64,000 nucleotides of DNA from Crossiella equi. GTDB lineage: Bacteria; Actinomycetota; Actinomycetes; Mycobacteriales; Pseudonocardiaceae. Location of the stretch: contig NZ_JAGIOO010000001.1 in assembly GCF_017876755.1 (NCBI RefSeq), forward strand, positions 7,983,786 through 8,047,785, in the 5' to 3' direction. Both the position numbers and the translations under genes were made by a program. The stretch's first letter is position 1. Each line of letters starts with the position of its first letter. The notes under the pieces were generated by a model. The model searched no databases. It was not told the DNA's origin and saw nothing but the letters and a program-made list of their open reading frames with translations. Of this stretch, positions 45,699-63,489 are shown in pieces.

Positions 45699-45754
45699 CT
45701 CATGTGCTGGGGTGGGCGTCCTCCCACGGGCACAACCGGCGCCGGTGAGTCGAG

Positions 45755-45907: not shown

Positions 45908-46050
45908 CCGCCGAGGGCCGCCACCGCCTCAGCGCAGCGATTGGAACGCCGCCCGCAGCTCCTGGCTGAACAGCCAATCAGTTCAACGGCGCATGGACGG
46001 TGCGAGCACGGGTACCGCCTTGGTGACGTTCCCGCACCGAGGAGGAAGCA

Positions 46051-48303
46051 GTGGCTGCGCACAAGCCGGGCAAGCTCGTGAAAGCAGCGCTGGAGAAGGC
46101 GGTGGAGAAGGTCGTCGAACTGACGAACCCGCCGATCCCCGGCGCACCCAGCAGTGAACCCCCGCCTCTCGACGAGCCGACCGTCCCGCGTGGGCCGCTG
46201 CCGCCGAAGGCGGACCAGGACAGCCCCGAGACGGTGTCCCCGACCGGTGCTCCCACCGGCGCGCCGAAGATCGCCAACGGGCAGCAGGGCGAGTTCCTCA
46301 CGACCTCGGCCGGTCTGAGAGTCCACGACACCGACCACTCGCTCAAGGCAGGCGCGCGCGGCCCGACGCTGCTGCAGGACCACCACCTGCGCGAGAAGAT
46401 CACGCACTTCGACCACGAACGCATCCCGGAACGGGTCGTGCACGCCCGCGGCTACGGCGCGCACGGCGTGTTCGTGGGCTACGGCACAGCCGCGAAGGTC
46501 TGCAAGTCCGCCTTCCTGGGCGACGGTGTCGAGACGCCGGTCTTCGTGCGGTTCTCCACCGTCCTGGGCTCGCGGGGATCGGCGGACACCGTACGCGACA
46601 CGCGTGGGTTCGCGACGAAGTTCTACACCGAGGAAGGCAACTTCGACCTGGTCGGCAACAACATCCCGGTGTTCTTCATCCAGGACGGCATCAAGTTCCC
46701 GGACATCATCCACGCGGCCAAGCCGCATCCGGACCGGGAGATCCCGCAGGCGCAGAGCGCACACGACACGTTCTGGGACTTCGTGTCCACGCACACCGAG
46801 GCCACCCACCACGTCATGTGGAACATGTCCGACCGCGGGATCCCCCGTTCCTACCGCACGATGGAGGGCTTCGGCGTCCACACCTTCCGCCTCGTCAACG
46901 CCGCTGGCGAGACGGCGCTGGCGAAGTTCCACTGGAAGCCGAAGCTCGGCGTGCACTCCCTGGTCTGGGAGGAGGCGCAGCTGCTCGGCGGCATCGACCC
47001 CGACTTCCACCGCCGCGACCTCGCCGACGCCATCGAGTCCGGCGCGTACCCCCAGTGGGAGCTCGGCCTGCAGATCATGCCCGACACGCCCAGGCAGACC
47101 TTCGAGAACATCGACCTGCTCGACCCGACCAAGATCGTGCCGGAGGAGCTCGCGCCGGTACAGCCGGTCGGCATCCTCACGCTCAACCGCAACACGACCA
47201 ACTTCTTCGCCGAGACCGAGCAGGTCGCCTTCCACCTCGGCAACCTGGTGCCGGGCATCGACGTGACCGACGACCCGCTGTTGCAGTCCCGGTTGTTCTC
47301 CTACCTGGACACCCAGCTGTCCAGGCTCGCCGGGCCGAACTTCAACCAGATCCCGGTCAACCGCCCGCACGTTCCGGTCAACGACATGCTGCGGGACGGT
47401 TTCCACCAGCACGCGGTGCACGCCGGGGTCGCCCCCTACCGGCCGAACACCCTCGACGGCGGCAACCCGTTCGAGGCAGGTGCCGAGGACCGGCCGTTCG
47501 TCGAGGTGGCGCAGCCGTTGCCCAAGTCGGCGAAGACCAGGCAGTCACCCACCTCCTTCGCCGACCACTACACGCAGCCGAGGCTGTTCTGGCTGAGCCT
47601 GTCCCCGGTGGAGAAGGAGCACGTCGTGCGCGCCTTCACCTTCGAGCTCGGCAAGTGCTACGAGCAGACCATCAAGGAACGCCAGCTGCTCGTGCTGGCC
47701 AACGTCGACCCGACGCTGTGCGCCGAGGTGGCCAGGGGGCTCGGCCTGCCGGCACCGGCCGCCACCGTGCGGCCCAAGAAGGTCGCGCCGAGCCCGGTCC
47801 TGTCCCAGGTCGGGCGGTCGTGGCCGACCGACGGTCGTGTCATCGGGATCGTGGTCGACCCGGCCGATCTCGACGGCGTGCGTACCGTCCGCGAGACCGT
47901 GCTGGCCGGTGGGATGGTGCCCCTGCTGATCGCCCCGACCGGCGGGCCGCTCGACGCCGACAGCGGTCTGGTGGCCCAGCGCAGCTTGCTCACCGCGCGG
48001 TCGGTCGAGTTCGACGCCCTGCTGCTCGCGGGCAGCCCACCCCCCGGAGCCGACGCGCCGGGAGGCTCCGTCGAACCGGCTGACGCGATCGACCCGCGCG
48101 TCATCCGCATGGTCCAGGAGTGCTTCCGCCACGCCAAGGCCATCGGCGCGTGGGGCTCCGGCCGTCTCGCCGTCGAGGCCGCCGGGTACGCCACCCAGCC
48201 GGGAGTCGTGGTCGACGACGACCCGGCGGACGTGCTCAAGGCGTTGACCGTGCTGCTCGGGGAACACCGGGTGTGGGACCGCTTCCCCGCGACGATCGCC
48301 TGA
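46051..48303 (+). CDS. katE: Large-subunit catalase (HPII/KatE type)
   Basis: 750 residues, the length of clade II catalases. The catalytic His is H131 in RVVHARGYGAHG, the distal Asn is in DLVGNNIPVFF (about 203) and the haem-ligand Tyr is in RLFSYLDTQLSR. The extra C-terminal flavodoxin/DJ-1-like domain (about 600-750, VIGIVVDPADLDG, then KAIGAWGSGRLAVEAAG) is complete. The N-terminal about 75-residue extension is Pro-rich. It decomposes H2O2 in the cytosol. GTG 46051 has GGAGGAAG upstream. An ankyrin-repeat gene follows at 11 nt, a recognised catalase partner arrangement. Confidence 0.95.
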   Translation: MAAHKPGKLVKAALEKAVEKVVELTNPPIPGAPSSEPPPLDEPTVPRGPLPPKADQDSPETVSPTGAPTGAPKIANGQQGEFLTTSAGLRVHDTDHSLKAGARGPTLLQDHHLREKITHFDHERIPERVVHARGYGAHGVFVGYGTAAKVCKSAFLGDGVETPVFVRFSTVLGSRGSADTVRDTRGFATKFYTEEGNFDLVGNNIPVFFIQDGIKFPDIIHAAKPHPDREIPQAQSAHDTFWDFVSTHTEATHHVMWNMSDRGIPRSYRTMEGFGVHTFRLVNAAGETALAKFHWKPKLGVHSLVWEEAQLLGGIDPDFHRRDLADAIESGAYPQWELGLQIMPDTPRQTFENIDLLDPTKIVPEELAPVQPVGILTLNRNTTNFFAETEQVAFHLGNLVPGIDVTDDPLLQSRLFSYLDTQLSRLAGPNFNQIPVNRPHVPVNDMLRDGFHQHAVHAGVAPYRPNTLDGGNPFEAGAEDRPFVEVAQPLPKSAKTRQSPTSFADHYTQPRLFWLSLSPVEKEHVVRAFTFELGKCYEQTIKERQLLVLANVDPTLCAEVARGLGLPAPAATVRPKKVAPSPVLSQVGRSWPTDGRVIGIVVDPADLDGVRTVRETVLAGGMVPLLIAPTGGPLDADSGLVAQRSLLTARSVEFDALLLAGSPPPGADAPGGSVEPADAIDPRVIRMVQECFRHAKAIGAWGSGRLAVEAAGYATQPGVVVDDDPADVLKALTVLLGEHRVWDRFPATIA

Positions 48304-48314
48304 GGGGTCCGGCC

Positions 48315-48719
48315 GTGACCGAGGCGCTCACCGACGAGGAACTGGCTTTCCTCAACTCGATGTTCGACCTGGCGCGGGCTGGCGAGACGGCCCGGCTGGC
48401 GGAGGCGGTCGACGCGGGGCTGCCGGTGAACCTCACCAACAGCGCGGGTGACTCCCTGCTGGTCCTCGCCGCCTACCACGACCACCCGGACACCGTCCGG
48501 GCGTTGCTGGCGCGGGGCGCGGACACCGGGCGCGTCAACGACCGGGGGCAGACCGCGCTCGGGGCGGCGGTCTTCCGCCGTTCCGGGCGCACCGCCGGTC
48601 TCCTGCTCGACGCGGGCGCGGATCCCGGGCTCGGTGCGAGGTCGGCGCTCGACGTGGCCAGGCACTTCGACCTGCCCGAGATGCTGGCGCTGTTGGACTT
48701 CCGCACGGCCGCACGATGA
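48315..48719 (+). CDS. Ankyrin-repeat protein, catalase partner (AnkB-like)
   Basis: 134 residues with about three ankyrin repeats: FDLARAGETARLAEAVDAGLPVNLTNSAGDSLLVLAAYHDH, then PDTVRALLARGADTGRVNDRGQTALGAAVF, then GRTAGLLLDAGADPGLGARSALDVARHFDLPEML. Small ankyrin proteins beside catalases (AnkB with KatB in Pseudomonas aeruginosa) are needed for full catalase activity, so a similar role is likely. No signal peptide. The GTG start lies 11 nt after katE. Confidence 0.85.
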   Translation: MTEALTDEELAFLNSMFDLARAGETARLAEAVDAGLPVNLTNSAGDSLLVLAAYHDHPDTVRALLARGADTGRVNDRGQTALGAAVFRRSGRTAGLLLDAGADPGLGARSALDVARHFDLPEMLALLDFRTAAR

Positions 48720-48743
48720 CCACGCGCGTCCTGGGAGCCGGGC

Positions 48744-49742
48744 TTGCCCGCCGCGTGCGCTGACACCGTCGGTGTGGAAGAGGAGTTCCTGCTCGTGGAC
48801 ACGGAGTCCGGGCGCACGGTGCCGCGCGCGGCCTCCGTGCTGGCGCGGGTGCGGGACACCGGGCTGACCGAGTTCCACACCGAACTCGCCGGTACGCAGG
48901 TGGAAGCGGCCACCGGCCCGTGCACGGGTGTCCTCGCGCTTGGCCAGGCACTCCGCCGGGCACGCTCGGACCTCGCCGTGGCGGCCGCGGAGCTGGGCAT
49001 CGGGCTGGTGTCCAGGGGCACGCCGCACGTGCCGTCGACCCGGGTCGTCGTGGGTGCGGAGGAGCGGTACCGAAGGGTGCTCGCCACCTATGCGGGCGTG
49101 GTCGAGGACTACGAGGCCTGCGGCTGTCACGTGCACGTGGGGGTGCCGGACCGCGAGACCGCGGTGGCCGTCGTGAACCACGTGCGGGGGTGGCTGCCCA
49201 CGCTGCTCGCGCTGTCCGTCAACTCCCCCGACCACGGGTACGCGAGCTGGCGGATGGTGTTGCAGTCCCGGTTCCCCGGTGCCGGGGTGCCGCCGGTGTT
49301 CGCCGACGCGGCCGACTACGACGCGCACGTCGCCAGGATGGTGGAGTGCGGAACGCTGGTCGACCCCGCGCAGACGTTCTGGCTCGTGCGGCTGTCCCCG
49401 AAGCTGCCCACCGTGGAGTTCCGCGCGGCCGACGCGGCCGCTGAGGTGGACGACGCCGCACTGCAGGCGGCTTTGTCCCGTGTGCTCGTGCACACCGCGC
49501 ACCAGGACCTGCTCGACGGCAAGCAGGCGCGGCCGGTGCGCGAGGACGTGTGCGCTGCCGCGGTGTGGGCGGCCTCGCGCCACGGACTGCACGGCACGGC
49601 CGTCGACCCGTGGCAGGAACGCCAGGTGCCCGCGATCGAGGTGCTGGACGGGCTCGTGAAGCACGTGACACCGGCCTTGGCGGAACGAGGTGAGCTCACG
49701 CTGGTGCACGACCTGGTGGCCCAGCGGGTGCGGCGCCTCTGA
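48744..49742 (+). CDS. YbdK-type glutamate-cysteine ligase family protein
   Basis: About 332 residues of the carboxylate-amine ligase (GCS2/YbdK) family: TVGVEEEFLLVD near the N-terminus (the Glu triad binds metal/ATP), DYEACGCHVHVGVPDRE (near 130), NSPDHGYASWR and VEFRAADAA. It would join an amino acid to Glu or a similar acid, plausibly for a low-molecular-weight thiol or related compound. The start is a TTG (48744) with GGGAG upstream. An ATG that overlaps the ankyrin stop (48716) is out of frame and stops after 15 codons, so either TTG is used or one frameshift separates the natural start. It may be co-transcribed with the catalase/ankyrin genes. Confidence 0.8.
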   Translation: MPAACADTVGVEEEFLLVDTESGRTVPRAASVLARVRDTGLTEFHTELAGTQVEAATGPCTGVLALGQALRRARSDLAVAAAELGIGLVSRGTPHVPSTRVVVGAEERYRRVLATYAGVVEDYEACGCHVHVGVPDRETAVAVVNHVRGWLPTLLALSVNSPDHGYASWRMVLQSRFPGAGVPPVFADAADYDAHVARMVECGTLVDPAQTFWLVRLSPKLPTVEFRAADAAAEVDDAALQAALSRVLVHTAHQDLLDGKQARPVREDVCAAAVWAASRHGLHGTAVDPWQERQVPAIEVLDGLVKHVTPALAERGELTLVHDLVAQRVRRL

Positions 49743-49841
49743 CCGGCCGCGGGTTCGACCGCTCCACTCCTCGGCCCCCACCGGCCAGCACGTTGACCGC
49801 CGTCCGAGGTCTCCTGCCCGGCGGCACTACCACCAGAGATA

Positions 49842-49862
49842 AAAGCAACGTATCGTTGCTTT
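49842..49862. promoter_or_regulatory. 21-bp TetR-type operator
   Basis: AAAGCAACG-TAT-CGTTGCTTT has perfect 9-bp arms. It lies 31 nt before GTG 49893. It probably binds the TetR protein encoded as the second gene of the operon. Confidence 0.7.
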
Positions 49863-49892
49863 AGTTGGCGTGGTGGTGCGAGAGGAGACCTG

Positions 49893-51008
49893 GTGAAGAT
49901 CTTGGTCAGTGGTGGGGGAGCGGCGGGGCTGAGCGCGGGCATCAACCTCGCACGGGCCGGGCACGCGGTGGAGGTCGTGGAGCGGGCGAGTCACCTGCGG
50001 GTCAACGGCTCGCCCATCGATGTGCGCGGCGACGCACTCGAAACGGCGGAGCGGATGGGCATCCTGGACGCGGTGCGCGAGCGGCGGATCACGATGACCG
50101 AGGAGACGACGTTCGTCGACCGGTCCGGCGTGGTGGTCGCCTCGCTGGCGGTGGAGGAGATCAACGAGTCTTCCGCTGACATCGAGCTGCCCCGCGAGGA
50201 CCTCATGACCATCCTGCGGCGGACCCTGCCCGAGCAGGTCGACCTGCGTTTCGGGGAGTCCGTCGTGGCGCTGGTCGACGACGGAGACCGGGTCGCGGTC
50301 ACCTTCGCCTCCGGCCGCGAGGCCGCCTACGACATCGTCGTCGGCGCGGTCGGGGTGCACTCGGCGGTGCGCCGACTGGTCTTCGGCCCGGAGAAGGAGT
50401 TCACCAAGCCCCTCGGGGTGTACGTGGCGATCGGGGACGCGCCCGGCCAGGTGACGCCCGGCAACACGCGCGTCACCGAGATCCTCAACCTGCCGGGGCG
50501 CTTGGCGGGCGTGGCCCGCTACCGCGACACAGCGCTGGCAATCTTCGAGTTCCGGTCCGACCCGATCGCCTACGACCACCACGACCCGGTCGCCCAGAAG
50601 CGCATCCTGACCGAGGCCTTCGCCGGGATCGAGGACTGGAAGGTCCCCGAACTGATCGAGACCGCCCAGCGCGATCCCGAGCTGTACTTCGACGCGATCA
50701 CCCAGATCCACATGCCGACCTGGCACCGGGGACGGGTCGTGCTGATCGGGGACGCCGCGCACTGCGCGACTCCGATGGCCGGGCGTGGCACCTCGCTTGC
50801 CCTGCTCGGGGCGTGGACGCTCACCGAGGAGCTCGGCCGCCACGGCGACGACCTCGAGGCGGCCTTCCGCGCCTACGAGCGGCGCCAGCGCCCCCACGCG
50901 GCCGCGGCCCAGGAGTTCGCGCGTGGCGGGGCCGACCTCGTCGTCCCGGCCACCGGGGAGGCCATCGAGGCGCGCAACACCCGGCTGCGGGCGGCGCGGC
51001 CGCTATAG
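49893..51008 (+). CDS. FAD-dependent monooxygenase (PheA/TetX-like)
   Basis: 371 residues. FAD-binding fingerprint SGGGAAGLSAGINLARAGHAVEVVE at the N-terminus, the DG-like motif region around IVVGAVGVHSAVRR and the second FAD motif VVLIGDAAHCATPMAGRG with GTSLALLGAWTLTEEL. This is the class A flavoprotein hydroxylase plan (TetX, aromatic hydroxylases), so NAD(P)H and O2 are the expected co-substrates. GTG 49893 has an AGGAGA ribosome-binding site. The next gene, a TetR regulator, follows after 10 nt. Confidence 0.9.
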   Translation: MKILVSGGGAAGLSAGINLARAGHAVEVVERASHLRVNGSPIDVRGDALETAERMGILDAVRERRITMTEETTFVDRSGVVVASLAVEEINESSADIELPREDLMTILRRTLPEQVDLRFGESVVALVDDGDRVAVTFASGREAAYDIVVGAVGVHSAVRRLVFGPEKEFTKPLGVYVAIGDAPGQVTPGNTRVTEILNLPGRLAGVARYRDTALAIFEFRSDPIAYDHHDPVAQKRILTEAFAGIEDWKVPELIETAQRDPELYFDAITQIHMPTWHRGRVVLIGDAAHCATPMAGRGTSLALLGAWTLTEELGRHGDDLEAAFRAYERRQRPHAAAAQEFARGGADLVVPATGEAIEARNTRLRAARPL

Positions 51009-51011
51009 GCT
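51006..51011 (+). promoter_or_regulatory. -10 box (TAGGCT) possible leaderless TetR start
   Basis: TAGGCT fits TANNNT and ends 7 nt before ATG 51019. The TetR gene may thus have its own leaderless promoter as well as read-through from 49893. Confidence 0.35.
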
Positions 51012-51018
51012 GCCGTCC

Positions 51019-51636
51019 ATGGCCGAGGACGGACCCGCACGAGAACCGGCCCGCCGTCCGGGCGGGCGCACCGCACAGGTGCGGCGTCGGATTCTTGATG
51101 CCGCCGCCGAGCTGATCGCCCGCGACGGGATCGGCGGGCTGCGCTACGACCAGGTCGCCGAGCTCGCCGAGGTCAACAAGACCAGCGTCTACCGCAACTG
51201 GCCCCACCGCAACGCACTGGTCGCCGACGCGCTCGCCACCTTCGGCGCCGAGGCCGCACCCCTGCACGACACGGGCGACCTGGACGCCGACCTCGTCGAC
51301 TTCCTCGAAGCCCTCGCCGCGGCCACCGCCAGCCCGGCAGGACGAGCACTGCTGGCCGTGGTCGTCTCGGCGCGGGAGAACCCCGAGCTGCGGGCCGTCG
51401 TCGACGAGGTCTTCGACCGGCGGCTGGCAAGCCTGCGAGCCCGCTTGCGGGCCGCGGTCGAGCGCGGCGAGCTGCCCGAAGTCGACCTTTCCCTGCTCGG
51501 CGCGATGCTCACCGGACCCGTCCAGCAGTTCCTCAGCCGCGGTTCCCGCACGTTCACCCGCCTGGACGCGCACCGGGTGACCGCGGTGGTGCTCGCCGGG
51601 GTGCGAGCCACCGCCACGGCCAACCAGCCCGGCTGA
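51019..51636 (+). CDS. TetR family regulator
   Basis: 205 residues. HTH at about 20-65: AQVRRRILDAAAELIARDGIGGLRYDQVAELAEVNKTSVYRNWPHRNALVADAL. The C-terminal domain belongs to the TetR_C_11/16 style (LVDFLEALAAATASPAGRALLAVV). It is directly downstream of the FAD monooxygenase gene and is the obvious candidate to bind the 21-bp palindrome at 49842-49862, giving inducible expression of both genes. Confidence 0.88.
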   Translation: MAEDGPAREPARRPGGRTAQVRRRILDAAAELIARDGIGGLRYDQVAELAEVNKTSVYRNWPHRNALVADALATFGAEAAPLHDTGDLDADLVDFLEALAAATASPAGRALLAVVVSARENPELRAVVDEVFDRRLASLRARLRAAVERGELPEVDLSLLGAMLTGPVQQFLSRGSRTFTRLDAHRVTAVVLAGVRATATANQPG

Positions 51637-51844
51637 CGGTGTCCGGTCCGCGGCTCTCGCATCCCGAAGGCACCGCCCTCGATGAGCATCAGCGGGCCGA
51701 TGCCGAGGAGCACGACCGGCAGCGGGATGTGCCCCACCGTGACAGCGCCCGCGCGATGGCGGGCCGGGTGGTATGGACACGCCCCAGCTGGTCGGTCCGG
51801 CTGGTCCCCGGTCGCTGTCAGGGGGCCGTGTCACCATCGCCAAC

Positions 51845-52198
51845 ATGACTGCCGCTCGGAACCTCGCCTCGACGGTGGCGCTCGACCCGGTGACGGCGAT
51901 GCTGTCGGCCGTGGCGAGCCGGGCCACCGCACAGTTCACCGACCGCAACCTCACGGTGCGCCGATCCAGGGTCGTGCACGCCGTGGAGCCCACCCCGTGG
52001 CTGGCCGGGGTCGAGCTGCCGGGCCCGGCCTGCCACGTGGGCGTCGCCGGATGGGCCCTGGAGGACCTGCACCCGACCACGGAACCGGTGACCTGCCGCC
52101 GATGCCTGCGCCACCAGGGCCACCGCGTGACCCCTCACCTCCGACTGGCGAACCAGCTGGCCCTCGCTCTCGAAGACGAGCGCGGGCTCATCGCGTAG
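51845..52198 (+). CDS. Hypothetical protein with CH...CxxC zinc-like motif
   Basis: 117 residues from ATG 51845. The second half contains ACHVGVAGWALEDLH and, 10 residues later, TCRRCLRHQGHR, a possible Zn-binding Cys/His set. The N-terminal half is helical (LASTVALDPVTAMLSAVASRATAQF). I do not recognise a family. There is no clear ribosome-binding site; the frame stays open to 51773 upstream. Confidence 0.4.
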   Translation: MTAARNLASTVALDPVTAMLSAVASRATAQFTDRNLTVRRSRVVHAVEPTPWLAGVELPGPACHVGVAGWALEDLHPTTEPVTCRRCLRHQGHRVTPHLRLANQLALALEDERGLIA

Positions 52199-53620
52199 CG
52201 CGACCCGCGCGCGATCCTCCATGGCTTGATCGACCTTCCTCTTGGTCCACGCGATCAGGTCTTTGAGGTCACCCAAGAGGCGGGCGCACGCGACCACCCC
52301 GGGGCGGGCCAGACACTGGCCCGGCACCGGAGGAAGGGGAGCACCCGGCCTGCCGAAATCGCCTTCTGCGGACTGTCAGACCTGCCCGATAGCAGGCGCT
52401 TGCGGGTGGTAGGAGACATGAAGATCTAGATCATCTCTGGGGGTCCCTGGGGGCCGGAGGGTGAGTCACGATGAGTTTCCGCAGGAACCGGTGGGCTCTT
52501 TCGAGCCTTTCAGGTTGATCTTGAATCTTGCGCTGAGCCTGGTGTGGATCGACGTCCGAAATCCGGTCGCGTCGTTCGGAGTGCCTGGCCGCTTGTATAC
52601 CCAGGTGCGGCAAAAGTGCAGGTAGAAAGGGTGGAGCGAGGGTGTCTCCACGACAGTCACCCCTGGGCCGGTGGACCTGGTGCGGGTCAGTCTTCCTTGG
52701 CCGGGCGGGCCTCTGGGGAGGGGGCAGCACGCCCCGGTCGATGAGCTGCTCGGTGAGCTCACCCGGGGACATGTCGTAATGTCCCCATGCAGCCCGTCCG
52801 GTGTAGATGGAACATCAGCGCCGTGTTGACGTCGGGTTGCCGCGCGCCAGTGGAGATCCGGTCCGTGACGGGCAGACGTCTCAGGGCCACACCCTGCTGC
52901 CGGTGTCGCTGCGCGTGGAGGCGCCGCGCGAACAGGTCCGCCTGCCCGGCGCGCCGCTGCGCCACCGGGGCTCGGGACTCGGGCGGGCACTGCTCGTCGG
53001 GCACCGCCCGGTCCCACCGCGGGCCGCTACCGGACCACGGGAGCTCCACCGCTGCCTCGGCGAGTACACCTCGCCGACGTTCAGCCGTACCGTGCGTCCC
53101 GGCCCCGGCCTCTCCCTGGTGATCACCAACCCGTTGCCGGGTCAGGACATCCCGCCGCCCCACCAGGCGGGTGACAGCGTCCGGGCTGACGTCGAAGGTC
53201 GAGCTGTCCGGACGCACGCGCTGGTCTGTCCGGAATGGGGTTGCGCAGCGGGCGCGGTCTCGATCTCGCCCAGGTGTTCGCATGCCATCTGACGGATGTC
53301 GTCACGCACCGCGTCGACGTCCCGGAGTTCGGGACCGGTGAGGTCGCGTGTTCAACTGTCGCGGGTTCGGCATCCGGTTCGAAGTGGACGTCTCGGCAAG
53401 TGGGCGCAGAACGTGAAGAACCGAAACGCTTGATCTTCTTCATGATTTCCCGTGCCTCGCACGATCGGGTGGACCAGGCGTCGGCGGCGCCCGGAACAGC
53501 GATTCGGGTGTTTCACTGATCGATGCTGCCGGGTGCCGATGCAGAGAACTGGCCGCCAGCACGGGTTTCCGCAGTGAAGGTCCTCCCCTGGGCAGATCCG
53601 GGTCTGGAGGACTGATCGAC
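52199..53620. other. Gene-poor, probably decayed region
   Basis: About 1.4 kb with no convincing gene. ORFs of 60-180 codons exist in all frames but lack ribosome-binding sites, family-like motifs or consistent codon bias. GC is locally lower around 52490-52650 and 53390-53520. Given the broken terpenoid genes that follow, this is probably the wreck of one or more genes from the same locus. Confidence 0.45.
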
Positions 53621-54219
53621 GTGACTCCCACGGCCTCTGTGCGCACCGCGCGCCCCGCCGGGCGAACCCTCGAGGAATGCCGTGGATTGTACGAGCCCGT
53701 CTACCGTGCCCTGGTGGCGACGATGCCCGCCGAGATCGCTCGGATCGGCGGCTACCACATCGGGTGGTGGGACGAGAACGGTGGAGCGCCGTCCTCGGGC
53801 GGCAAAGCGGTTCGCCCCGCGCTGGTGCTGGCCACCGCGGCGGCCGTGGGCAACGGCCCCGCGGGCGTCGTTCGTGACCGCACCCAAGGCACCGGACCTC
53901 GGCCTGGGCACTGCCCGAGCCGGCTCGTGCCATCTTGACCGGCGACCTCTTCCTGATCGTCGCCACGCAGATGCTGGCCGCCGAGGACGTCGCCGCCGCG
54001 CGGATCCTGACCCGTGCTCTCCGCGCGCTGTGCCAGGGGCAGAACGCGGACTTGTCTTTCGAGCGACGTCAGCGGGTGTCACTGCGCGAGTGCCCGCACA
54101 TGGTCGAGGGGAAGGCGGCCGCGCCGCTCGGCGCCTCCTGTGAGCTCGGTGCCCGGGCCGGTGGGGCCTGCGCGGAGCCCCTGGCGCTGGCCGAACTGAT
54201 CAACAGGCGGGACCGATGA
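53621..54219 (+). pseudogene. Decayed polyprenyl (GGPP-type) diphosphate synthase
   Basis: The frame from GTG 53621 reads through an N-terminal polyprenyl synthetase segment ending GGKAVRPALVLATAAAVG. It then loses the family pattern and stops at 53938. A second frame from about 53905 resumes with ARAILTGDLFLIVATQMLA, RILTRALRALCQGQNADLSF and MVEGKAAAPLGASCELGA, the region after the first Asp-rich motif. The DDxxD motif and its surroundings are missing, and the C-terminal second Asp motif is also absent. The enzyme cannot be active. It lies immediately upstream of the UbiA-type gene, the usual order of a diterpenoid unit. Confidence 0.65.
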
Positions 54220-54299
54220 CCCGGATGCCGGCTTCACGGGTGCCGGGACTCGCATCGGTGGCAGTCGCGTAGTACATGGCCAGAACGAGGAGCGCCAGG

Positions 54300-55268
54300 A
54301 TGAACGACAAAGCAGGTGAGCCGACCTCGATCGCCGACGAGCTCGTATCGGCATCTCGTGTGCACAGCCCGTTGGCATCGGTCGTGCACTTCCACAAGTC
54401 GCCGATCCGCTGGGTTCGGCGCGAGATCGAGATCACCGCCCGGATGATGGTGAACAACTTCCTCGTCGTCGTCTCCGGGACGCAGATAACCTTGGGTGTT
54501 GCGTTCAAGAACGATTTGACCGGAATCGATCTGATGAAGGTCTACCTGGTCGGCTGGGTTCTTTCGTTCCTCTACACCTACGTCTTCGACGCGGGAAACC
54601 AGGCCAGGGGCGGGCTTGAGGATTCCATCAACAAGCCGTGGAGACCTGTCCCGGCGGGCCTTGTGACCGAACAGGGCTTGCGGGTGCGGTACGTCGTGGG
54701 AAACCTGCTGTACGCTTTCCTGGCGTGGTGGTTCAACGTCCTCGAATGGGCGCTGCTCTGGCAGGTGAGTATGATCGCGCTGAACAGGTTCCAGGGTCGT
54801 TGGTACATCATTTCGAAGCAGATCACCATGCAAGCCGGAGTGGTCGCCATGTTCGCGATCGCCTGGGCGGCTGTCGAACCGGTCAACTCGCTCACCTGGC
54901 AATGGATCTTCTTCGCGGGCGTGCCCTACGTGTTTCCCCTGATCATGGAGGACCTGCGAGATGTCAAGGGCGACGGGGTCATCGGACGCCGCACGCCGAT
55001 CAGTGTGTTCGGCGAGCGGCCGGTGCGGATCTGGTGCGCTGCCTGGACCTTCTGCCTGCCTTTCATTCAACATTTTGGTCTTTACGTCCCCTCGGGGGCG
55101 AGCATGCAACGTATTCTTGTGTGTGACGTCCTCGTCCTCGGGACCTGCTGGCTGGTGTGCTATCGGCTGTTGCGGTACCGGGAGCCGAAGCGGGACGCCA
55201 TCACGTATCTCGTGTTCTACTTGTCGTTCTTCTTGTCGCTGAGCGCCATGCTGGTGCTCTACTTCTGA
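54300..55268 (+). CDS. UbiA-superfamily membrane protein, probable terpene cyclase
   Basis: 322 residues, about eight membrane helices between residues 45 and 322. First UbiA motif region is FDAGNQARGGLED followed by NKPWRPVPAG: N100 and D108 are kept but the middle Asp is replaced by G104, i.e. Nxxx(G/A)xxxD rather than NDxxDxxxD. The second motif EDLRDVKGD keeps D218, D221 and D225. UbiA-type terpene cyclases of fungi and Streptomyces are, as I recall, marked by exactly this first-motif change and cyclise GGPP or related diphosphates in the membrane. ATG 54300 has GAGGAG 7 nt upstream. It is the only intact gene of the locus; the upstream GGPP synthase and a downstream P450 are broken. Confidence 0.75.
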   Translation: MNDKAGEPTSIADELVSASRVHSPLASVVHFHKSPIRWVRREIEITARMMVNNFLVVVSGTQITLGVAFKNDLTGIDLMKVYLVGWVLSFLYTYVFDAGNQARGGLEDSINKPWRPVPAGLVTEQGLRVRYVVGNLLYAFLAWWFNVLEWALLWQVSMIALNRFQGRWYIISKQITMQAGVVAMFAIAWAAVEPVNSLTWQWIFFAGVPYVFPLIMEDLRDVKGDGVIGRRTPISVFGERPVRIWCAAWTFCLPFIQHFGLYVPSGASMQRILVCDVLVLGTCWLVCYRLLRYREPKRDAITYLVFYLSFFLSLSAMLVLYF

Positions 55269-55294
55269 TCGGGGTCGCCGAGTGGTGATGTCCC

Positions 55295-55717
55295 GTGTCC
55301 AGCTGTCGCACCGGCCTCCGCTGCGCTCTCCAGCCCGAGTTCCGGGACGGTTCGCTGATCGCGGCCAAGATCCGCGAGCCTGGGGACGACCTGATCTCGC
55401 GCCTGGGGCGAGCCGACCTGGCCGGGCACGAGGTGGAGTCCGCCGAGCTGCTGCTCGTGGCCGGGGGCTGCGAGACCACGGCCATGCTGCTGCCCCAGGC
55501 GGTGCGGCACCTGTGCGCGCACCCGGGGCAGCGCGCGGAGCTGCTGGCCGTGGCCGCCGCGCTGGTGCTGCTGTCGTGCGCGTCTGGCACGCCCCACTTC
55601 GTCGCCGTGCGCCGCTCGATCCGGCGGCCCTCGCACGAACGCGAACACGAGCCGGACGCCCCGGTCATCCCGGTGCGACGGCAACGGCCCGCCGTCGGTC
55701 CCGGCCGGAAAGCCTGA
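55295..55717 (+). pseudogene. Cytochrome P450 fragment (I-helix region)
   Basis: The frame contains IREPGDDLISRLGRADLAGHEVESAELLLVAGGCETTAMLLPQAVRHLCAHPGQRAELL, an unmistakable P450 I-helix and J-helix segment, with GGCETT in place of the usual AG.ETT. After about 55560 the sequence is no longer P450-like; ExxR and the haem Cys loop are absent. The N-terminal half is also missing. It is a gene remnant on the same strand as the terpene genes. Confidence 0.65.
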
Positions 55718-56437
55718 TCAGCCGGGGGAGTCGCCGGACTGCCGGTCCGCGCGGACCGCGCGCCAGTCTTCGGCCGAGCGGAGCAGGTTCTCGTACACCC
55801 TGGTCAGGAACTCGCCGACATCCTCAAGTCGCTGCCCGGCCGGGCTGTGCGCGCCGAACAGGCGCGCGCCCTCCCTGGCCACCCCGGCCATCTCGCCGTT
55901 GACCTGCGCGCTGGCCAGCATCGCCCGGTACCACACGTCATTGCCGATGAGGTAGCGGTCGCGGCGGGCCCGGCCGTCGCGCTCCCTGGTGATCAGCTCC
56001 TGCTCCTCGAGGAAGCCCACCGCGGCCGAGATCGAGGCCGGGCTGACCTGCAGGCGGCGCACCAGATCGGCGGCGGTGAGACTGCCGGAATCTGTGGTGT
56101 ACAAGCAGGTCAGCACCTTGGCCATCATCCCGGGCATGCCACTGCGCACCATCAACTCGGTGAAGCGCTCGGTGAAGTCCCGGACCGCCGCCGCGTCCTG
56201 GCCGGTCTCCGGCGGCGCGGACAGCCGGTGCACCGGGCGGCGGCGGGCTCGCCGGGTGGCGGCCAGCTGGGCCTGACCGGGCCGGTACTCCCGCGCGCCG
56301 CCGTTGCGGGCGACCTCCCTGGTGATGGTGGAGGGCGGGCGGTCCAGCCGCTTGGCGATCTCGGCGAGGGTGAGTCCCTCGGCCAGCCCCTCAGCGATGT
56401 CGGCGCGATCCTGGTGGGTCAGCCTGGTTCCTGGCAC
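55718..56437 (-). CDS. GbsR/MarR-like regulator with extra N-terminal HTH
   Basis: 239 residues. The N-terminal 50 residues are an IS30/HTH_38-type helix-turn-helix (RADIAEGLAEGLTLAEIAKRLDRPPSTITREVARNG). A GbsR/MarR-like winged helix follows (about 105-165, FTELMVRSGMPGMMAKVLTCLY, then SLTAADLVRRLQVSPASISAAVGFLEEQELITRERDGR), then a helical tail. Two DNA-binding units in one protein are unusual. GTG 56437 fits a leaderless promoter (TTGCAA-N17-CATACT). It is divergent from the P450/DUF4097/DrrAB operon, whose promoter carries the same operator motif, so it is almost certainly the operon's regulator. Confidence 0.82.
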   Translation of the reverse strand: MPGTRLTHQDRADIAEGLAEGLTLAEIAKRLDRPPSTITREVARNGGAREYRPGQAQLAATRRARRRPVHRLSAPPETGQDAAAVRDFTERFTELMVRSGMPGMMAKVLTCLYTTDSGSLTAADLVRRLQVSPASISAAVGFLEEQELITRERDGRARRDRYLIGNDVWYRAMLASAQVNGEMAGVAREGARLFGAHSPAGQRLEDVGEFLTRVYENLLRSAEDWRAVRADRQSGDSPG

Positions 56438-56444
56438 GGGTCCG

Positions 56445-56473
56445 AGTATGCATTCAGCTCTAGGTCATTGCAA
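56445..56473 (-). promoter_or_regulatory. Regulator promoter (leaderless)
   Basis: On the minus strand TTGCAA (56473-56468) and CATACT (56450-56445) are separated by exactly 17 nt, and the GTG start follows 7 nt later. The promoter is covered by operator copy 1 (56449-56476). Confidence 0.7.
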
Positions 56474-56587
56474 ATAACTCGCGCCCTGATTTGCATTCAG
56501 GTTCAGGGTCATTGCAAATACTTGGCGCTGTGATCTGCGGTGATGTGAGTTTTTAGGATCTTCTGATTGACCGTCTTCTGAATGCAA
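56449..56587. promoter_or_regulatory. Three operator copies between regulator and P450 operon
   Basis: Copies 1 (56449-56476) and 2 (56492-56520) are direct repeats of the form TGCATTCAG-N5/6-GGTCATTGCAAATA. Copy 3 (56567-56587) is inverted and shorter: on the minus strand it reads TTGCATTCAG-N6-GGTCAA. Copy 1 lies on the regulator promoter and copy 3 on the P450 promoter; copy 2 lies between. Confidence 0.75.
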
Positions 56588-56595
56588 CTTAGCTT
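56567..56595 (+). promoter_or_regulatory. Promoter of the P450-DUF4097-DrrAB operon
   Basis: TTGACC (56567-56572) and TAGCTT (56590-56595) with a 17-nt spacer. Operator copy 3 fills the -35 and spacer. Confidence 0.75.
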
Positions 56596-56636
56596 TCGGC
56601 TCGTTCTGAATATCAGGCAACCGAACTGGAGCCACT

Positions 56637-57839
56637 ATGACCGAGACCTTCGAGACCCTCCCGGGACTGCCGGTTGACCGGCCTGCGGGCTGTCCCTTCG
56701 ATCCACCGGCCGAACTGGCCGGGCTGCGCGCGCAGCGCCCGCTGACCCGCATGGTCTTTCCTGACGGGCACCACGGCTGGCTGGCCACCAGCCACGAGGT
56801 GATCCGCGCGGTGCTCGCCGACCCGAGGTTCAGCAACCGACGCGAGATCATGCACTCCCCGCTGCCCGGCATGGTCGCGGTGGAAGGCGGGTTTCCGCCC
56901 GCACAGCCCGGCGACTTCCTTGGCATGGACGCCCCCGAGCACACCCGCTACCGCCGTCTGCTCACCGGTAAGTTCACCGTCCGCCGGATGCGCCTGCTCA
57001 CCGAGCGGGTCGAACAGATCACCGCCGAGCACCTGGACCGGATGGCACAGGCCGGCGGCCCGCTGGACCTGGTGGCGCACTACGCCCAGCCCATCCCGGC
57101 GCTGATGATCTGCGAACTGCTCGGCGTGCCTGTCGAGCAGCGCGGGTTCTTCCAGGAGCGCACCGCCACCCTGAACGACTCCAACGCCAGCCCGGAGGAG
57201 CTGATGACCGCGATGAACGAGATCGGCGGCCTGCTCTACAGCCTGGTGCAGGCCAAACGCGCCGAGCCGACCGACGACCTGCTCAGCGACCTGACCACCA
57301 CCGAGCTGACCGACGAGGAACTGGCCAACGTGGCCGCGCTGCTGCTGGGCGCCGGACTGGACACCACCGCCAACCTGCTCGCCCTCGGCGTGTTCGCCCT
57401 GCTCCAGCACCCCGGGCAGCTGGCCGCGCTGCGGGATGGCGCGGTCGGGACGGCCCCGGCGGTGGAGGAGCTGCTGCGCTACCTCAGCATCACGCCGACG
57501 GGCGTGCGCACCGCGACCGCCGATGTCGAACTGGCCGGTCACCTGGTGCGGGCAGGCGAGTCGGTGGCGCTGTCGGTGCAGGCGGGCAACCGCGACCCCC
57601 AGGTCTATCCCGACCCCGACCGGCTGGACCTCGGTCGCCGGGCGGGCGGGCACCTCGGCTTCGGGCACGGCATCCACCAGTGCCTGGGCCAGCAACTGGC
57701 TCGGGTGGAGACGCAGGTGGCCTTCCCCGCCCTGTTCCGCCGGTTCCCCACGCTGCGCCTGGCGGTGCCCGCCGAACAGGTCCCGCTTCGGCTGGGGCAG
57801 GACATCTACGGCGTGCACCAGCTCCCAGTCACCTGGTGA
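56637..57839 (+). CDS. Cytochrome P450
   Basis: 400 residues, a typical soluble bacterial P450. The I-helix oxygen-activation motif GAGLDTT (238-244), ExxR at E278-R281 and the haem-binding loop [11 protein letters not shown] with Cys349 are intact. The early P450 motif [13 protein letters not shown] (about 97-109) is present. The substrate is unknown. It is the first gene of an operon with a DUF4097 protein and an ABC exporter. A GGAG ribosome-binding site precedes ATG 56637. No ferredoxin or reductase gene is adjacent. Confidence 0.95.
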
Positions 57840-57847
57840 GGGCCGCG

Positions 57848-58636
57848 ATGACCGGCTACGACACCCCCGGACCCATCCGCGCCGTGCTCGACCTGTCCGC
57901 CGCCCGCCTGTGGATCAACGCGGGCGCCCGCGCCGACACCCAGGTGCGGATCGACCCGGCCAACCCCGACTCACCAGAGGACGTCAAGGCCGCCCAGCGC
58001 ATCCAGGCCGACTACACCGAGGGCGAACTCACCGTGCGCGGCGCCCAGGGCACCTGGGGCTCCTGGCTGTCCAGCGGCGGCCTGGCCGAGGTGGTGCTCG
58101 ACCTGCCCGCGGGCTCCAGCCTGGAAGTGCGCACCTCGGCCGGGGACATCCGCGCCTACGGTCGTCTCGGCGATGTCACCGCGCACACCTCCCACGGCGA
58201 GATCGCGCTGACCCGCACCGGCAACGCCCGGCTGAGCACCGAGTCCGGCGGCATCCGGCTCGGCGTGGCCCGGGGCGCGGTCGAGCTGCGCGCCCCCGAC
58301 GGCGACATCCACGTGGAGGAGGTCACCGGCGAGCTGAACGCGGGCACAGCGGGCGGGAGCATCACCGTCGGGCGGGCGCACGCCGGTGTCACCGCCAAGA
58401 CCAAGCACGGCGACATCCGCCTGCGCGAGGTCGCTACCGGCACGGTGCTGGCCGAGACCGGCGCGGGCGAGGTGGAGATCGGCTTGCGGCCCGGCGCCGC
58501 CGCCGAACTCCAGCTGACCACCCGCTCCGGCACGGTGCGCGACCACCTCGGCGAGCCGGACACCACACCGGCCGAGTCCACGGTGCTGGTGCGCGCCACC
58601 ACCACGCACGGCGACATCCTGCTGCGCCGGGCCTGA
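57848..58636 (+). CDS. DUF4097 family beta-helix-like protein
   Basis: 262 residues of repeated short strands with the pattern T.G.I.L......V.....DG: for example EVRTSAGDIRAYGRLGDVTAHTSHGEIALTRTG and ELRAPDGDIHVEEVTGELNAGTAGGSITVGRAHAGV. This is the DUF4097/DUF4098 solenoid. No signal peptide, so it is cytosolic or peripheral. Proteins of this type often sit next to ABC exporters and MarR/GbsR regulators in actinomycetes; the role is not established. It begins 8 nt after the P450 stop. Confidence 0.85.
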   Translation: MTGYDTPGPIRAVLDLSAARLWINAGARADTQVRIDPANPDSPEDVKAAQRIQADYTEGELTVRGAQGTWGSWLSSGGLAEVVLDLPAGSSLEVRTSAGDIRAYGRLGDVTAHTSHGEIALTRTGNARLSTESGGIRLGVARGAVELRAPDGDIHVEEVTGELNAGTAGGSITVGRAHAGVTAKTKHGDIRLREVATGTVLAETGAGEVEIGLRPGAAAELQLTTRSGTVRDHLGEPDTTPAESTVLVRATTTHGDILLRRA

Positions 58637-58665
58637 AAACCCACTCTCCCAACAGGAACAAGGAC

Positions 58666-59634
58666 ATGACCAGACATCAGCGGTCCGCCGCGCTCACCGC
58701 GACCGGACTGCGCAAGTCCTACGGCACGTACACCGTGCTGGACGGCATCGATCTCGACATCCCCTCGGGCAGCATCTTCGCCCTGCTCGGCCCCAACGGG
58801 GCAGGCAAGACCACCGTGGTGCAGATCCTGTCCACCCTCATCTCCGCCGACGCGGGGGAGCTGAGCGTGGCCGGCCACGACGTGCTGGGGGAGCCGGACG
58901 CGGTGCGCGCCGCGATCGGCGTCACCGGGCAGTTCTCCGCGGTGGACGGGCTGCTCACCGGCGCGGAGAACCTGCACCTGATGACCCAGCTGCACCGGCT
59001 GCCCCGCCGGGACCGGCAGCCGAAGGTGACGGAGCTGTTGCGCCGCTTCGACCTCGTGGAGGCGGGCGGGCGGCCGGCGGCCACCTACTCCGGCGGCATG
59101 CGCCGCCGACTCGACCTGGCCATGACGCTGGTCGGCGACCCCCGGGTGATCTTCCTGGACGAGCCGACCACCGGACTGGACCCGCGCAGCAGGCACACCA
59201 TGTGGCAGATCGTTCGCGAACTGGTCGCCAAGGACGGGGTAACCCTGTTCCTCACCACCCAGTACTTGGAAGAGGCCGATCAGCTCGCCGACCGGATCGC
59301 CGTGCTACACAGGGGAAAACTGGTCGCCCAGGGCAGCTCCGAGCAGCTGAAGCGGCAGGTCGGCGGCGGGCACATCAGCCTACGCTTCGGCACCGCGCGC
59401 GGCTACCAGCTGGCCGCCGACGCGCTGGAGGTGTTGTCCCGCAACGACGAGGAACTCACCCTCCAGATCCGCGGCAGCGGCTCGGCCAGCTCTCTGCGCG
59501 AGTTGCTGGACTGGCTTGACCGCGCGGAGCTGCCCGTGGCGGAACTGTCGGTGCACACCCCCGATCTGGACGACGTCTTCTTCGCCCTCACCGGCGCCCC
59601 CACCGCGACCTCGGAACAGGAGCCCACCCGATGA
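58666..59634 (+). CDS. ABC exporter ATP-binding protein, DrrA-like
   Basis: 322 residues. Walker A GPNGAGKTT (42-50), signature YSGGMRRRLDLA, Walker B VIFLDEPTTGLDP and switch His-equivalent Q in LFLTTQYLEEADQLADR, the DrrA hallmark (TTQYLEEAD). The C-terminal about 90 residues form the DrrA-type extension (LRFGTARGYQLAADAL). It would power the DrrB-like permease coded by the overlapping next gene to export a hydrophobic compound, possibly the P450 product or a toxic substrate. Confidence 0.92.
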   Translation: MTRHQRSAALTATGLRKSYGTYTVLDGIDLDIPSGSIFALLGPNGAGKTTVVQILSTLISADAGELSVAGHDVLGEPDAVRAAIGVTGQFSAVDGLLTGAENLHLMTQLHRLPRRDRQPKVTELLRRFDLVEAGGRPAATYSGGMRRRLDLAMTLVGDPRVIFLDEPTTGLDPRSRHTMWQIVRELVAKDGVTLFLTTQYLEEADQLADRIAVLHRGKLVAQGSSEQLKRQVGGGHISLRFGTARGYQLAADALEVLSRNDEELTLQIRGSGSASSLRELLDWLDRAELPVAELSVHTPDLDDVFFALTGAPTATSEQEPTR

Positions 59635-60425
59635 GCAGCCTCGCGCACGCCGTCACCGACTCGGCGACCATGCTGCGGCGGCGGATGCGGCACATGCTGC
59701 GTTACCCGTCGCTCACCCTGATGATCGCCGGGATGCCGGTGATCTTCCTGCTGCTGTTCGTCTACGTCTTCGGGGGCACCATGGGCAACGGCCTCGGCGG
59801 CGGGGTCGGCGGCCGGGCGGCCTACGCCAACTACATCGCTCCCGGCATCATCCTGATGACCGTGGCCGGTGCCGCGCAGGGCACCGCGATCTCGGTGGCC
59901 ACCGACATGACCGAGGGCATCGTGGCCCGCTTCCGCACCATGGCCATCGCCAGGGTCTCGGTGCTCACCGGACATGTGCTGGGCAGCCTGATCCAGGCCA
60001 TGCTGAGCATGGCACTGGTGGTCGGCGCGGCGCTGCTGGTGGGTTTCCAGCCCACCGCCGGACTGGGCGACTGGCTGGCCGCGACCGGGGTGCTGGCCAT
60101 GTTCGCCTTCGCGCTCACCTGGCTGTCGGTGGCCCTGGGCATGGTGACCAAGAGCGTGGCCGCGGCCAGCAATCTGCCGCTGCCACTGATGATCCTGCCC
60201 ATGATCGGCAGCGGGTTCGTGCCCACCGGATCCATGCCGGACGCGTTGCGCTACTTCGCCGAGTACCAGCCGTTCACCCCGGTCATCGAAACCCTGCGCG
60301 GCCTGCTGCTGGGCGCGCCGATCCCGGCGCACAGCACCCCGCTGGCCATCGGCTGGAGCGCACTGATCGCCCTGGGCGGCTACCTGTGGGCCAAGCGCCT
60401 CTACAACCGCGAACCCACGCGCTGA
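59631..60425 (+). CDS. ABC-2 type permease, DrrB-like
   Basis: 264 residues with six predicted membrane helices: near 27-50, 68-90, 110-136, 143-165, 172-195 and 230-255. The EGIVARFRTMAIARVSVLTGHVLGSL stretch is the DrrB family signature. It starts inside the DrrA stop (ATGA, 59631-59634). Last gene of the operon. Confidence 0.92.
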   Translation: MSSLAHAVTDSATMLRRRMRHMLRYPSLTLMIAGMPVIFLLLFVYVFGGTMGNGLGGGVGGRAAYANYIAPGIILMTVAGAAQGTAISVATDMTEGIVARFRTMAIARVSVLTGHVLGSLIQAMLSMALVVGAALLVGFQPTAGLGDWLAATGVLAMFAFALTWLSVALGMVTKSVAAASNLPLPLMILPMIGSGFVPTGSMPDALRYFAEYQPFTPVIETLRGLLLGAPIPAHSTPLAIGWSALIALGGYLWAKRLYNREPTR

Positions 60426-60859
60426 CCGGGAGCCCTGTGGTGACAGCGCAGGTTTCACCGTGATTGAACGGGAATCGTCCGCTGCTCACTGAGTCGGTGT
60501 GGGCGAAACCGCAGAAGTCCGGCTTCGTCGTCTACGGTGCCATCCCGGCCTGGTTGCCCACCACGCTGCGCAAGCCGAAACGGCCCGGTTGGTTACCGGG
60601 CACCGGGCACGGCATCGGCGATCCGGACGGCACCGGCATGCCGCTGACCCACTGGAGCGTCATCGGCGACGATTTGCGGGTGGTCCACTTGCCCGGCCCG
60701 CACGTCATCCACCCCACCCCGGCCAACCCCGATCTGCCGCCTACGGGCGGTTCGCGTGCAGCGCGCCGAGGAGCTGCAGGCGTTCGGCGTCAACGGTGCC
60801 GGGTCCGCGGTGTGGACCAACAGCACGGGACCCGGACTCCCGGTGAGCGGGTAGGTGAC
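60426..60859. other. Decayed or intergenic stretch after the DrrB gene
   Basis: One frame (about 60464-60740) reads like a real protein piece (KSGFVVYGAIPAWLPTTLRK, then LTHWSVIGDDLRVVHLPG), and another frame (about 60753-60853) continues in protein-like fashion (QRAEELQAFGVNGAGSAVW) up to a stop. A frameshifted gene remnant is possible, family unknown. Confidence 0.3.
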
Positions 60860-61169
60860 CCGGCCAACCACCGGTCCGTGTCCACCGGGCGGCACGATGG
60901 CGGCGTGGTCGTCGAGGGTGACCTCGCAGGGCTCGTTCGGCGAGTGCCACGCAGTGCCCGCACTCGTCCGGCGATCGCCGGACCGGCGCAGTGCTGTTCC
61001 GGCGGCTGCACGACACCACCGGGAGAGGCGAAGTCGACGGTGGAGCCGGTCTCGGTGCACTTCTCGTGCGCCGCGGCCACCTCCTCCGCCCAGTAGCCAG
61101 TCGGGTGCTCCGACCGTCAGTACGCGTCCAGACCTCGGCAGCCGACATGACGATCAAGACCGTGCCCAT
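60860..61169 (-). pseudogene. Decayed DJ-1/PfpI family gene
   Basis: ATG 61169 with an AAAGGA ribosome-binding site opens MGTVLIVMSAAEVWTRTDG. A 1-nt shift near 61105 is needed to continue into EHPTGYWAEEVAAAHEKCTETGSTVDFASPGGV, and another near 60950 to reach CEVTLDDHAAIVPPGGHGP. The order matches type-1 glutamine-amidotransferase-like DJ-1 proteins (HPTGYWAEE, FASPGG, PGGHG), but the nucleophile-elbow Cys region is missing. Two frameshifts plus a 3' deletion make it a pseudogene. Confidence 0.6.
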
Positions 61170-61391
61170 CTCGCATTCCTTTCGAGTGCGGGGCCGGAGC
61201 GCTCGGTCGTCCGCCGGGCCGCCTGTGCCACAGCGGCTTCGTCGCGCAGGTCGACGGTGATGGGCAGCAGGCGGGTGGTGTCGGCCTCGTCCGCCGGCTC
61301 GCGAGCTGGGCGGGGCACGTGCCGACTCGACACGAGCGGAACCGCTGACGGGGAGCACCTCCCGGGTCGGCGGATCGTGACGTGCCGGTGA

Positions 61392-61718
61392 TCACCGTTC
61401 TGGGGCGTTGCCGAGTTGGCCACGCAGCGCGGCGATCTGGTCGTGCGCGGCGGCGAGGTCGTCTTCCAGACCGATGATCCGGGCGGTCGCGGCCAGGCTG
61501 TGGCCCTCGTCGAACAGGAGGCGGATGCGCGCGGCCAGTTGGAGTTGGCGGCGGCTGTAGCGGCGGTGCCCGCCCTCGGAGCGCTGCGGACGTACCAGGT
61601 TCGCGGTGTCCAGGCTGCGCAGGAACGCCTGCTGCACGCCGAGCAGGTTCGCGGCTTGCCCGGTGGTGAACGCCGGGTAGTCACGATCGTCGAGGTTGTC
61701 GAGGTTGTTCACAGCCAC
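61392..61718 (-). CDS. MerR-like regulator near Hsp20 (HspR-like)
   Basis: 108 residues. MerR winged helix: FTTGQAANLLGVQQAFLRSLDTANLVRPQRSEGGHRRYSRRQLQLAARIRLLFDEGHSLAATARII, then a coiled-coil dimerisation helix (EDDLAAAHDQIAALRGQL). No metal-binding Cys. This small MerR form is often found beside small heat-shock protein genes in actinobacteria. Start GTG 61718 or GTG 61712, with a GAGGAGGAG stretch upstream. It is divergent from the 61872 gene and shares its promoter region. Confidence 0.8.
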   Translation of the reverse strand: MAVNNLDNLDDRDYPAFTTGQAANLLGVQQAFLRSLDTANLVRPQRSEGGHRRYSRRQLQLAARIRLLFDEGHSLAATARIIGLEDDLAAAHDQIAALRGQLGNAPER

Positions 61719-61794
61719 AGGCCAGGCACTCCTCCTCGTTGCCGGACGGCCACGCGGGGTGGCCCAGCCCCTCTAGATTATCTTCAGCGCGCGC

Positions 61795-61823
61795 TTGACA
61801 CAATCTACAGTCGGCGCTATAAG
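61795..61823 (+). promoter_or_regulatory. Near-consensus sigma-70 promoter
   Basis: TTGACA (61795-61800), a 17-nt spacer and TATAAG (61818-61823). It is the best vegetative promoter in the window. A TAGATT...AATCTA inverted repeat and the sequence AGCGCGCGCT overlap its -35, suggesting control by the divergent MerR-like protein. Confidence 0.8.
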
Positions 61824-61871
61824 AAATGCATCGGTCCGGAACCTGGTGAAGGCAACCTGGGAGTGATCGAC

Positions 61872-62255
61872 ATGGACGGCAGATGCGTTGCCCGCCCCGC
61901 GGGAACCGAGCGGGGGCGGCTGCCCGCGACCGAGCGGCGCGGCTTCGCCGAACTGGTCTGCGCCGACCCGGTGTGGGTGCGCGCGGAGTTCGACGCGATC
62001 ATCTCCGCCAACTTCGGTGCCGCCGACGAATGGCCCGAGATCCCCCCGCGCCGTCCAGCGCGCCCCGTGCGAGATCGGCGCGGTCGCCCCGGTGGCGTGG
62101 ACCGCGGGCCCAGTCCGCCGACCTGGGTGCGTCGAGGTGACCTCGCCCGGACAGCCTGCCGGGTCGGGGCTCGGGAGCGGGCGCCTCCGCCACCTCGCCG
62201 CGCAGGCGCCTCGCAGTGTCGCCCATCGAGCGAACGCGAGCGGGAAAGCGAGTGA
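61872..62255 (+). CDS. Hypothetical protein with strong promoter
   Basis: 127 residues from ATG 61872 (GTG 61863 is an in-frame alternative nearer to a ribosome-binding-like GAAGG). The N-terminal 60 residues look like a conserved small domain (RRGFAELVCADPVWVRAEFDAIISANFGAADEWPEIPP); the rest is Pro/Arg-rich and may result from a frame slip, since other frames are also open. No family recognised. It follows the near-consensus promoter at 61795-61823, so it is probably expressed well. Confidence 0.5.
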   Translation: MDGRCVARPAGTERGRLPATERRGFAELVCADPVWVRAEFDAIISANFGAADEWPEIPPRRPARPVRDRRGRPGGVDRGPSPPTWVRRGDLARTACRVGARERAPPPPRRAGASQCRPSSERERESE

Positions 62256-63085: not shown

Positions 63086-63251
63086 CCAGACCAACCCCCG
63101 CCACCCCGGAGGACAGACCCGTTCTCCGGGGCCAGGCCGGAACCGGTGCTGGACGAGACCCGGGACGCGCCGACACCGACCAACGGCGCGTTGGTGGACA
63201 TTCCCGCCGACCTGCGGGCACCACACGGTTGAACGAGAAGGGAGAATCGCG

Positions 63252-63470: not shown

Positions 63471-63489
63471 CCGCGGGCGAGGTGCGGCA

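Follow-up and report, generated by a model that had tools for sequence, protein, structure and literature searches.

What does an intact gene encode, when the genes on either side of it are broken, and can it still be of use? This question is raised by a stretch of 64,000 nucleotides from Crossiella equi, referred to throughout as the window (G000:C1:7983786-8047785, within a single-contig genome of 9.44 Mb). Here, a putative UbiA-type terpene cyclase gene lies between remnants of a prenyl diphosphate synthase gene and a cytochrome P450 gene. Note that "cluster", as used below, means only these three adjacent, co-directional genes. With good confidence, we consider the product to be probably a UbiA-type class I terpene cyclase, integral to the membrane and most likely using geranylgeranyl diphosphate (GGPP), and its gene to have been orphaned by deletions in the neighbours. 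Reaction, substrate, and activity are those that we infer from sequence, from a predicted fold, and by analogy to described enzymes.

The cyclase gene and its motifs

The first-pass annotation, made from the DNA letters, described an open cyclase frame with a good ribosome-binding site. This is what we find: an ATG at 54300, 322 open codons, a stop codon at 55266-55268, and GAGGAG 7 nt upstream of the ATG. A second in-frame ATG, at 54276, would give a longer protein; the spacing of GAGGAG favours the ATG at 54300. A deviating motif I, alongside intact aspartates in motif II, had also been noted, and both can be read in the protein. Motif I is NQARGGLED (residues 100-108; N100xxxG104xxxD108, pattern NxxxGxxxD) and motif II is EDLRDVKGD (residues 217-225; E217, then D218xxD221xxxD225). 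With G104 at position 5 of motif I, the protein lacks the middle Asp of the prenyltransferase patterns NDxxDxxxD and DxxxD.

UbiA (PF01040) is the sole Pfam match of the protein at E-values up to 1 (E 1.4e-15; 57.7 bits, cut-off 34.2). Four NCBIfam models match, the best at 29.7 bits, where the cut-offs begin at 180.8. The AlphaFold model, with a predicted local distance difference test (pLDDT) score of 92.7, has the UbiA transmembrane fold, and UbiA proteins take the first 13 places in Foldseek and the first 10 in VIA-align.

The motif pair had further been said to separate membrane terpene cyclases from prenyltransferases. For fungal UbiA-type terpene synthases, PMC9835599 gives Nxxx(G/A)xxxD as motif I and QDxxDxxxD as motif II, and the window protein fits this pair save for E in place of Q. 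The fungal enzymes Fma-TC, EriG, and Tps1A/Tps2A share Nxxx(G/A)xxxD, and xDxxDxxxD, with the window protein, and differ in having QDxxDxxxD rather than EDxxDxxxD; the comparison is of stated motifs, not of an alignment. The same text reports that alanine at D100, D215, D218, or D222 of Tps1A abolishes product. It also gives archaeal 4od4 and 4tq3 (ApUbiA and AfUbiA) a DxxxD motif I, unlike the window protein. Archaeal 6m31, going by its molecule name, transfers to a lipid acceptor. In bacteria, StlTC, from Streptomyces lydicus, is a UbiA-type diterpene cyclase making lydicene, according to PMC10301674. Compared by description only, StlTC resembles the window protein in coming from an actinomycete and being of UbiA type; its cyclisation of a prenyl diphosphate is an activity that the window protein would share.

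Relatives and phylogeny

An alignment scan of a species collection of 84,980 genomes gave 110 relatives, of which 80 were kept; a single-protein scan of the same contig collection gave no relative and 13 pattern matches. The relatives belong to Actinomycetota, Cyanobacteriota, Chloroflexota, Myxococcota, Bacteroidota, and Halomonadaceae. The cyclase gene is rare. By protein search, it is in one of five genomes of the genus, namely its own. Homologues occur in 10 of 390 genomes of the family, own included (E 1e-10), in 3 of 397 genomes sampled from the order, all within the same family, and in 5 of 392 sampled genomes of the genus of Streptomyces sp. CC53, that strain included (E 1e-30). The CC53 protein (L028) is by far the nearest relative, at 68% identity over 298 columns, and the next by score (L029) is 38-40% identical. 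In L027 (G086:C323, about 9676-10364), from the same bacterial family, the cyclase looks broken over two or more frames.

We gathered 93 sequences and dropped 13 near-copies. The resulting 80-row tree holds the window protein and 74 relatives, plus the genome's five other UbiA proteins, which we take, from their sequences, to be CtaB, MenA, DPPR synthase, and two best called just "UbiA". The broken L027 was left out, and no assayed cyclase is among the rows. Clustering with ordinary UbiA prenyltransferases, which the first-pass annotation had named as evidence against a cyclase, is not what the tree gives. Instead, 75 cyclase-type rows, window included, split from the five other UbiA proteins at a branch with support of 85/93, which is not starred, and the branches of the five are long. 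The window and CC53 proteins pair at 100/100, inside a 16-row subclade (93/99) that is separate from the tree's Streptomyces rows other than CC53 and G1060.

Residues were counted in an alignment of 74 rows, the five other UbiA proteins and 14 near-copies having been left out of the 93. Position 5 of motif I is G in 63 rows, S in 9, and A in 2. All 74 rows have D108, D218, D221, and D225, and 72 have N100. Residue 217 is Q in 58 rows; the remaining 16 have E, as the window protein does beside its DxxDxxxD, and they are the 16-row subclade of the tree. D97 is present in 16/16 of the E217 rows versus 3/58 of the Q217 rows, and the CC53 protein has the same motifs, and the same D97/E217 signature, as the window protein. 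In the literature searched, most subscription journals being outside its coverage, no characterised member of the D97/E217 subclade was found.

Could the protein be an unusual UbiA prenyltransferase, moving its prenyl group to an acceptor without cyclisation? The fold is the same, and the closest solved structures, whether by fold search or with the family profile against the PDB, are lipid and chlorophyll prenyltransferases. Used singly against PDB sequences, with phmmer, the protein had 0 matches; the family profile had six at E up to 1. Two further points speak for a prenyltransferase: the top profile match is digeranylgeranylglyceryl phosphate synthase (E 1.8e-14), and motif II has E where Q is stated for the fungal cyclases. 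On the other side, the middle Asp of motif I is absent from 74/74 rows, and the NCBIfam prenyltransferase models score far below their cut-offs. We judge a prenyltransferase very unlikely, and retain the cyclase.

Substrate, partners, and mechanism

A GGPP-type synthase had been annotated as the former upstream neighbour. Two remnant pieces, in different frames, bear this out, and IdsB-like GGPP synthase models score on them. Our reference for the remnant was a stop-to-stop frame of 379 residues that adjoins the L018 cyclase; L018 is taken as record L031, Amycolatopsis anabasis. The remnant is without both Asp-rich motif stretches (the first at L018 residue 137, the second at 265) and ends 80 bases upstream of the cyclase gene. 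Only the second piece is above the Pfam cut-off; the first has a Pfam E-value of 0.4 and an NCBIfam E-value of 7e-16. Over both pieces, 164 aligned codons are stop-free, the damage consisting of deletions and a frame change, with none scattered. Because the final codons resemble the native tail by eye (LAELINRRDR versus LLELITHRTS), the second loss looks internal.

For the synthase beside the A. anabasis cyclase (L031:6784-7911), the best NCBIfam model is family 2 encapsulin cargo polyprenyl transferase, with a score of 437.2 bits (cut-off 450). This model (NF041169) is also the best for the remnant, at 58 bits for one piece and 63 for the other. On these scores, all below the cut-off, we set aside the idea that the remnant was an encapsulin cargo.

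Synthases accompany many related cyclases. Of 85 related loci, 29 have a prenyl synthase upstream of the cyclase, in the same orientation and no more than 3.5 kb away; in the window's subclade, 7 of 19 do. Near-copies are included in these counts, and contig ends truncate some of the loci. These adjoining synthases differ in type. At one locus (L021, in G097), a TGA interrupts the frame of the synthase directly upstream of the cyclase, and another synthase is 7 kb away, a parallel to the window. Further upstream of the L021 cyclase are ispG-like and dxs-like frames and that of a second prenyl synthase.

The mixed type of the relatives' synthases would suit a sesquiterpene cyclase, using farnesyl diphosphate (FPP, C15), in place of a diterpene cyclase. 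FPP-using fungal UbiA-type enzymes do exist, as PMC9835599 states. However, the window's own remnant pieces, by their scores on IdsB-like models and their match to the L018 synthase, point to GGPP, and we regard FPP as an unlikely substrate.

A GGPP-using cyclase, orphaned in this way, would need another supply. The genome has 12 PF00348 matches, one being the remnant and 11 others, and four whole IdsB-like matches (343-359 bits), all below the curated cut-off of 475. Since the genome holds these further prenyl synthases, GGPP is likely available in the host.

In UbiA enzymes, the Asp motifs hold Mg2+ and diphosphate. In the window protein, motif II (D218, D221, and D225) and D108 of motif I would hold Mg2+, and the metal would bind the prenyl diphosphate substrate, most likely GGPP, by its diphosphate. 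The substrate would then ionise to an allylic cation. As there is neither an acceptor nor the middle Asp of NDxxDxxxD, this cation would cyclise inside the cavity, and quenching would give a cyclic diterpene hydrocarbon or alcohol. The GGPP for such a product would today come from other loci, and the former P450 step would no longer follow.

In Streptomyces sp. CC53, the cyclase gene is at a contig end, behind dxs (named by Pfam), a gene that is presumably ispG, and a prenyl synthase gene, all with open frames. This synthase is 38% identical to the window remnant over 63 residues (E 5e-4). We rejected the CC53 row as the intact form of the window cluster, since its prenyl synthase is of another type; judged from these sequences, the row is a parallel, not an ancestor.

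Beside that row, and divergent from it, L028:1294-3396 (minus strand) encodes a 701-residue protein with an NDVIDLGYD stretch. It has no Pfam match at 0.001, and no NCBIfam match at 0.01, and is possibly an undescribed terpene enzyme. Among the relatives' neighbours, Pfam was run on ten proteins, drawn from four of the related loci. The Sciscionella neighbours (L032) appear unrelated to terpenes.

Broken neighbours and local surroundings

Downstream of the cyclase gene, where a P450 had been annotated as the former neighbour, we find a remnant that is short but clean. Its recognisable I-helix piece is 45% identical to the intact P450 further along (E 2e-12, for that single pair) and matches TIGR04515 at 4e-4; the Pfam p450 profile does not match the remnant. 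The prenyl synthase and P450 neighbours appear to have been lost by deletion. Because both remnants are deletion-broken, yet otherwise clean, this decay looks recent.

Table 1. Features of the cyclase locus, in window coordinates
Feature	Position	Strand	Basis or extent
Putative UbiA-type terpene cyclase gene, intact, 322 amino acids	54300..55268	+	Open reading frame, Pfam, motifs, tree, predicted fold
GAGGAG ribosome-binding site	54287..54292	+	7 nt before ATG 54300; read directly in sequence
Prenyl diphosphate (GGPP-type) synthase remnant, N-terminal piece	53603..53818	+	Matches L018 frame residues 27-102
Prenyl diphosphate synthase remnant, middle piece, other frame	53890..54219	+	53890-54165 matches L018 residues 148-241
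Cytochrome P450 remnant	55295..55717	+	Only I-helix region recognised (64 aligned residues, 55352-55543) in frames searched
Intact cytochrome P450, further downstream; candidate only for a shared pathway	56637..57839	+	Pfam, NCBIfam

Positions 45000-63900 were searched, as DNA, in the genus's five genomes, with 40 candidates scored per genome. Among the matches listed, G003 and G004 share 45974-48712 over almost its full length, at 93% identity. Three listed stretches are copies of loci in the same genome: 50072-51727 of 666697-668352 (99%), 51770-52206 of 7156840-7157283 (94%), and 52641-52779 of 1914741-1914874 (92%). The surroundings of the cyclase are thus a patchwork of stretches duplicated within the genome. 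None of the matches listed overlaps the cyclase or the two remnants, and no intact ancestral cluster was seen among them in the genus's five genomes. The first two copied stretches, recent duplicates beside the cyclase, hold a monooxygenase, which we take to be flavin adenine dinucleotide (FAD)-dependent, and a TetR protein named by Pfam.

Selection and present use

Across 316 codons, the window and CC53 genes differ at 98, 59, and 156 first, second, and third positions. Nonsynonymous (dN) and synonymous (dS) divergences are 0.267 and 1.575 by NG86, and 0.282 and 1.358 by LWL85; with dS, at about 1.5, near saturation, the result is usable for direction only. Among the other rows of the 74-row alignment, 29 columns reach 90% conservation or more; the window protein departs at none of these and the CC53 protein at one. 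An open frame of 322 codons, with 29/29 highly conserved columns retained, is on these sequence grounds not a chance occurrence. By the same comparisons, the gene has evidently been constrained over most of its history, the recent past being invisible to them.

What the open frame says of the present is a separate matter. In 2000 simulations of random substitution (substitutions only), the frame stayed open in 69, 48, 16, 3, and 0.6% of runs at 1, 2, 5, 10, and 20% divergence. Given that the decay is probably recent, an open frame says little for present use, and may reflect recency as much.

The cyclase may thus be a recent survivor, no longer expressed or useful, with a frame still open because its neighbours broke very recently. 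This is compatible with the enzyme family proposed, and we give it slightly less than an even chance. The clean state of the synthase and P450 pieces, the 48% and 16% of simulated frames surviving 2% and 5% neutral divergence, and the recent duplicates nearby, one of them 99% identical, all fit. Against it, both neighbours are broken while the gene between them is untouched, the window's branch (0.23) is no longer than that of CC53 (0.28), and the conserved columns show no departure. Note that each of these opposing points is compatible with constraint lost in the recent past. That the cyclase still acts on GGPP from elsewhere, as the first-pass annotation proposed, is plausible, with recent survival equally open.

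Discussion

The first-pass annotation proves right on the sequence and, to the extent that computation can tell, on the enzyme family. The window cyclase is a cleanly kept addition to a known enzyme family, ordinary but chemically uncharted. The UbiA-type terpene cyclase family is already in print; Yang et al. (2017) is reportedly the paper defining its bacterial diterpene cyclases. A bolder proposal, which we rate as rather unlikely, is that the 16-row subclade is functionally distinct, its paired D97 and E217 hinting at a rebuilt metal or diphosphate site, and makes terpene skeletons yet to be described, with the window enzyme forming a one-gene pathway on other loci's GGPP after the cluster decayed. 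D97 and E217, as signature residues of the subclade, are worth testing. Expression should be straightforward because the gene is small and intact.

According to PMC10055836, the class I terpene synthase profile PF19086 does not match UbiA-related diterpene synthases, and the family thus escapes that profile. With the window gene, a little-explored branch of the membrane terpene cyclases gains a clear candidate, and its locus would be one where a cyclase has outlived its partner genes.
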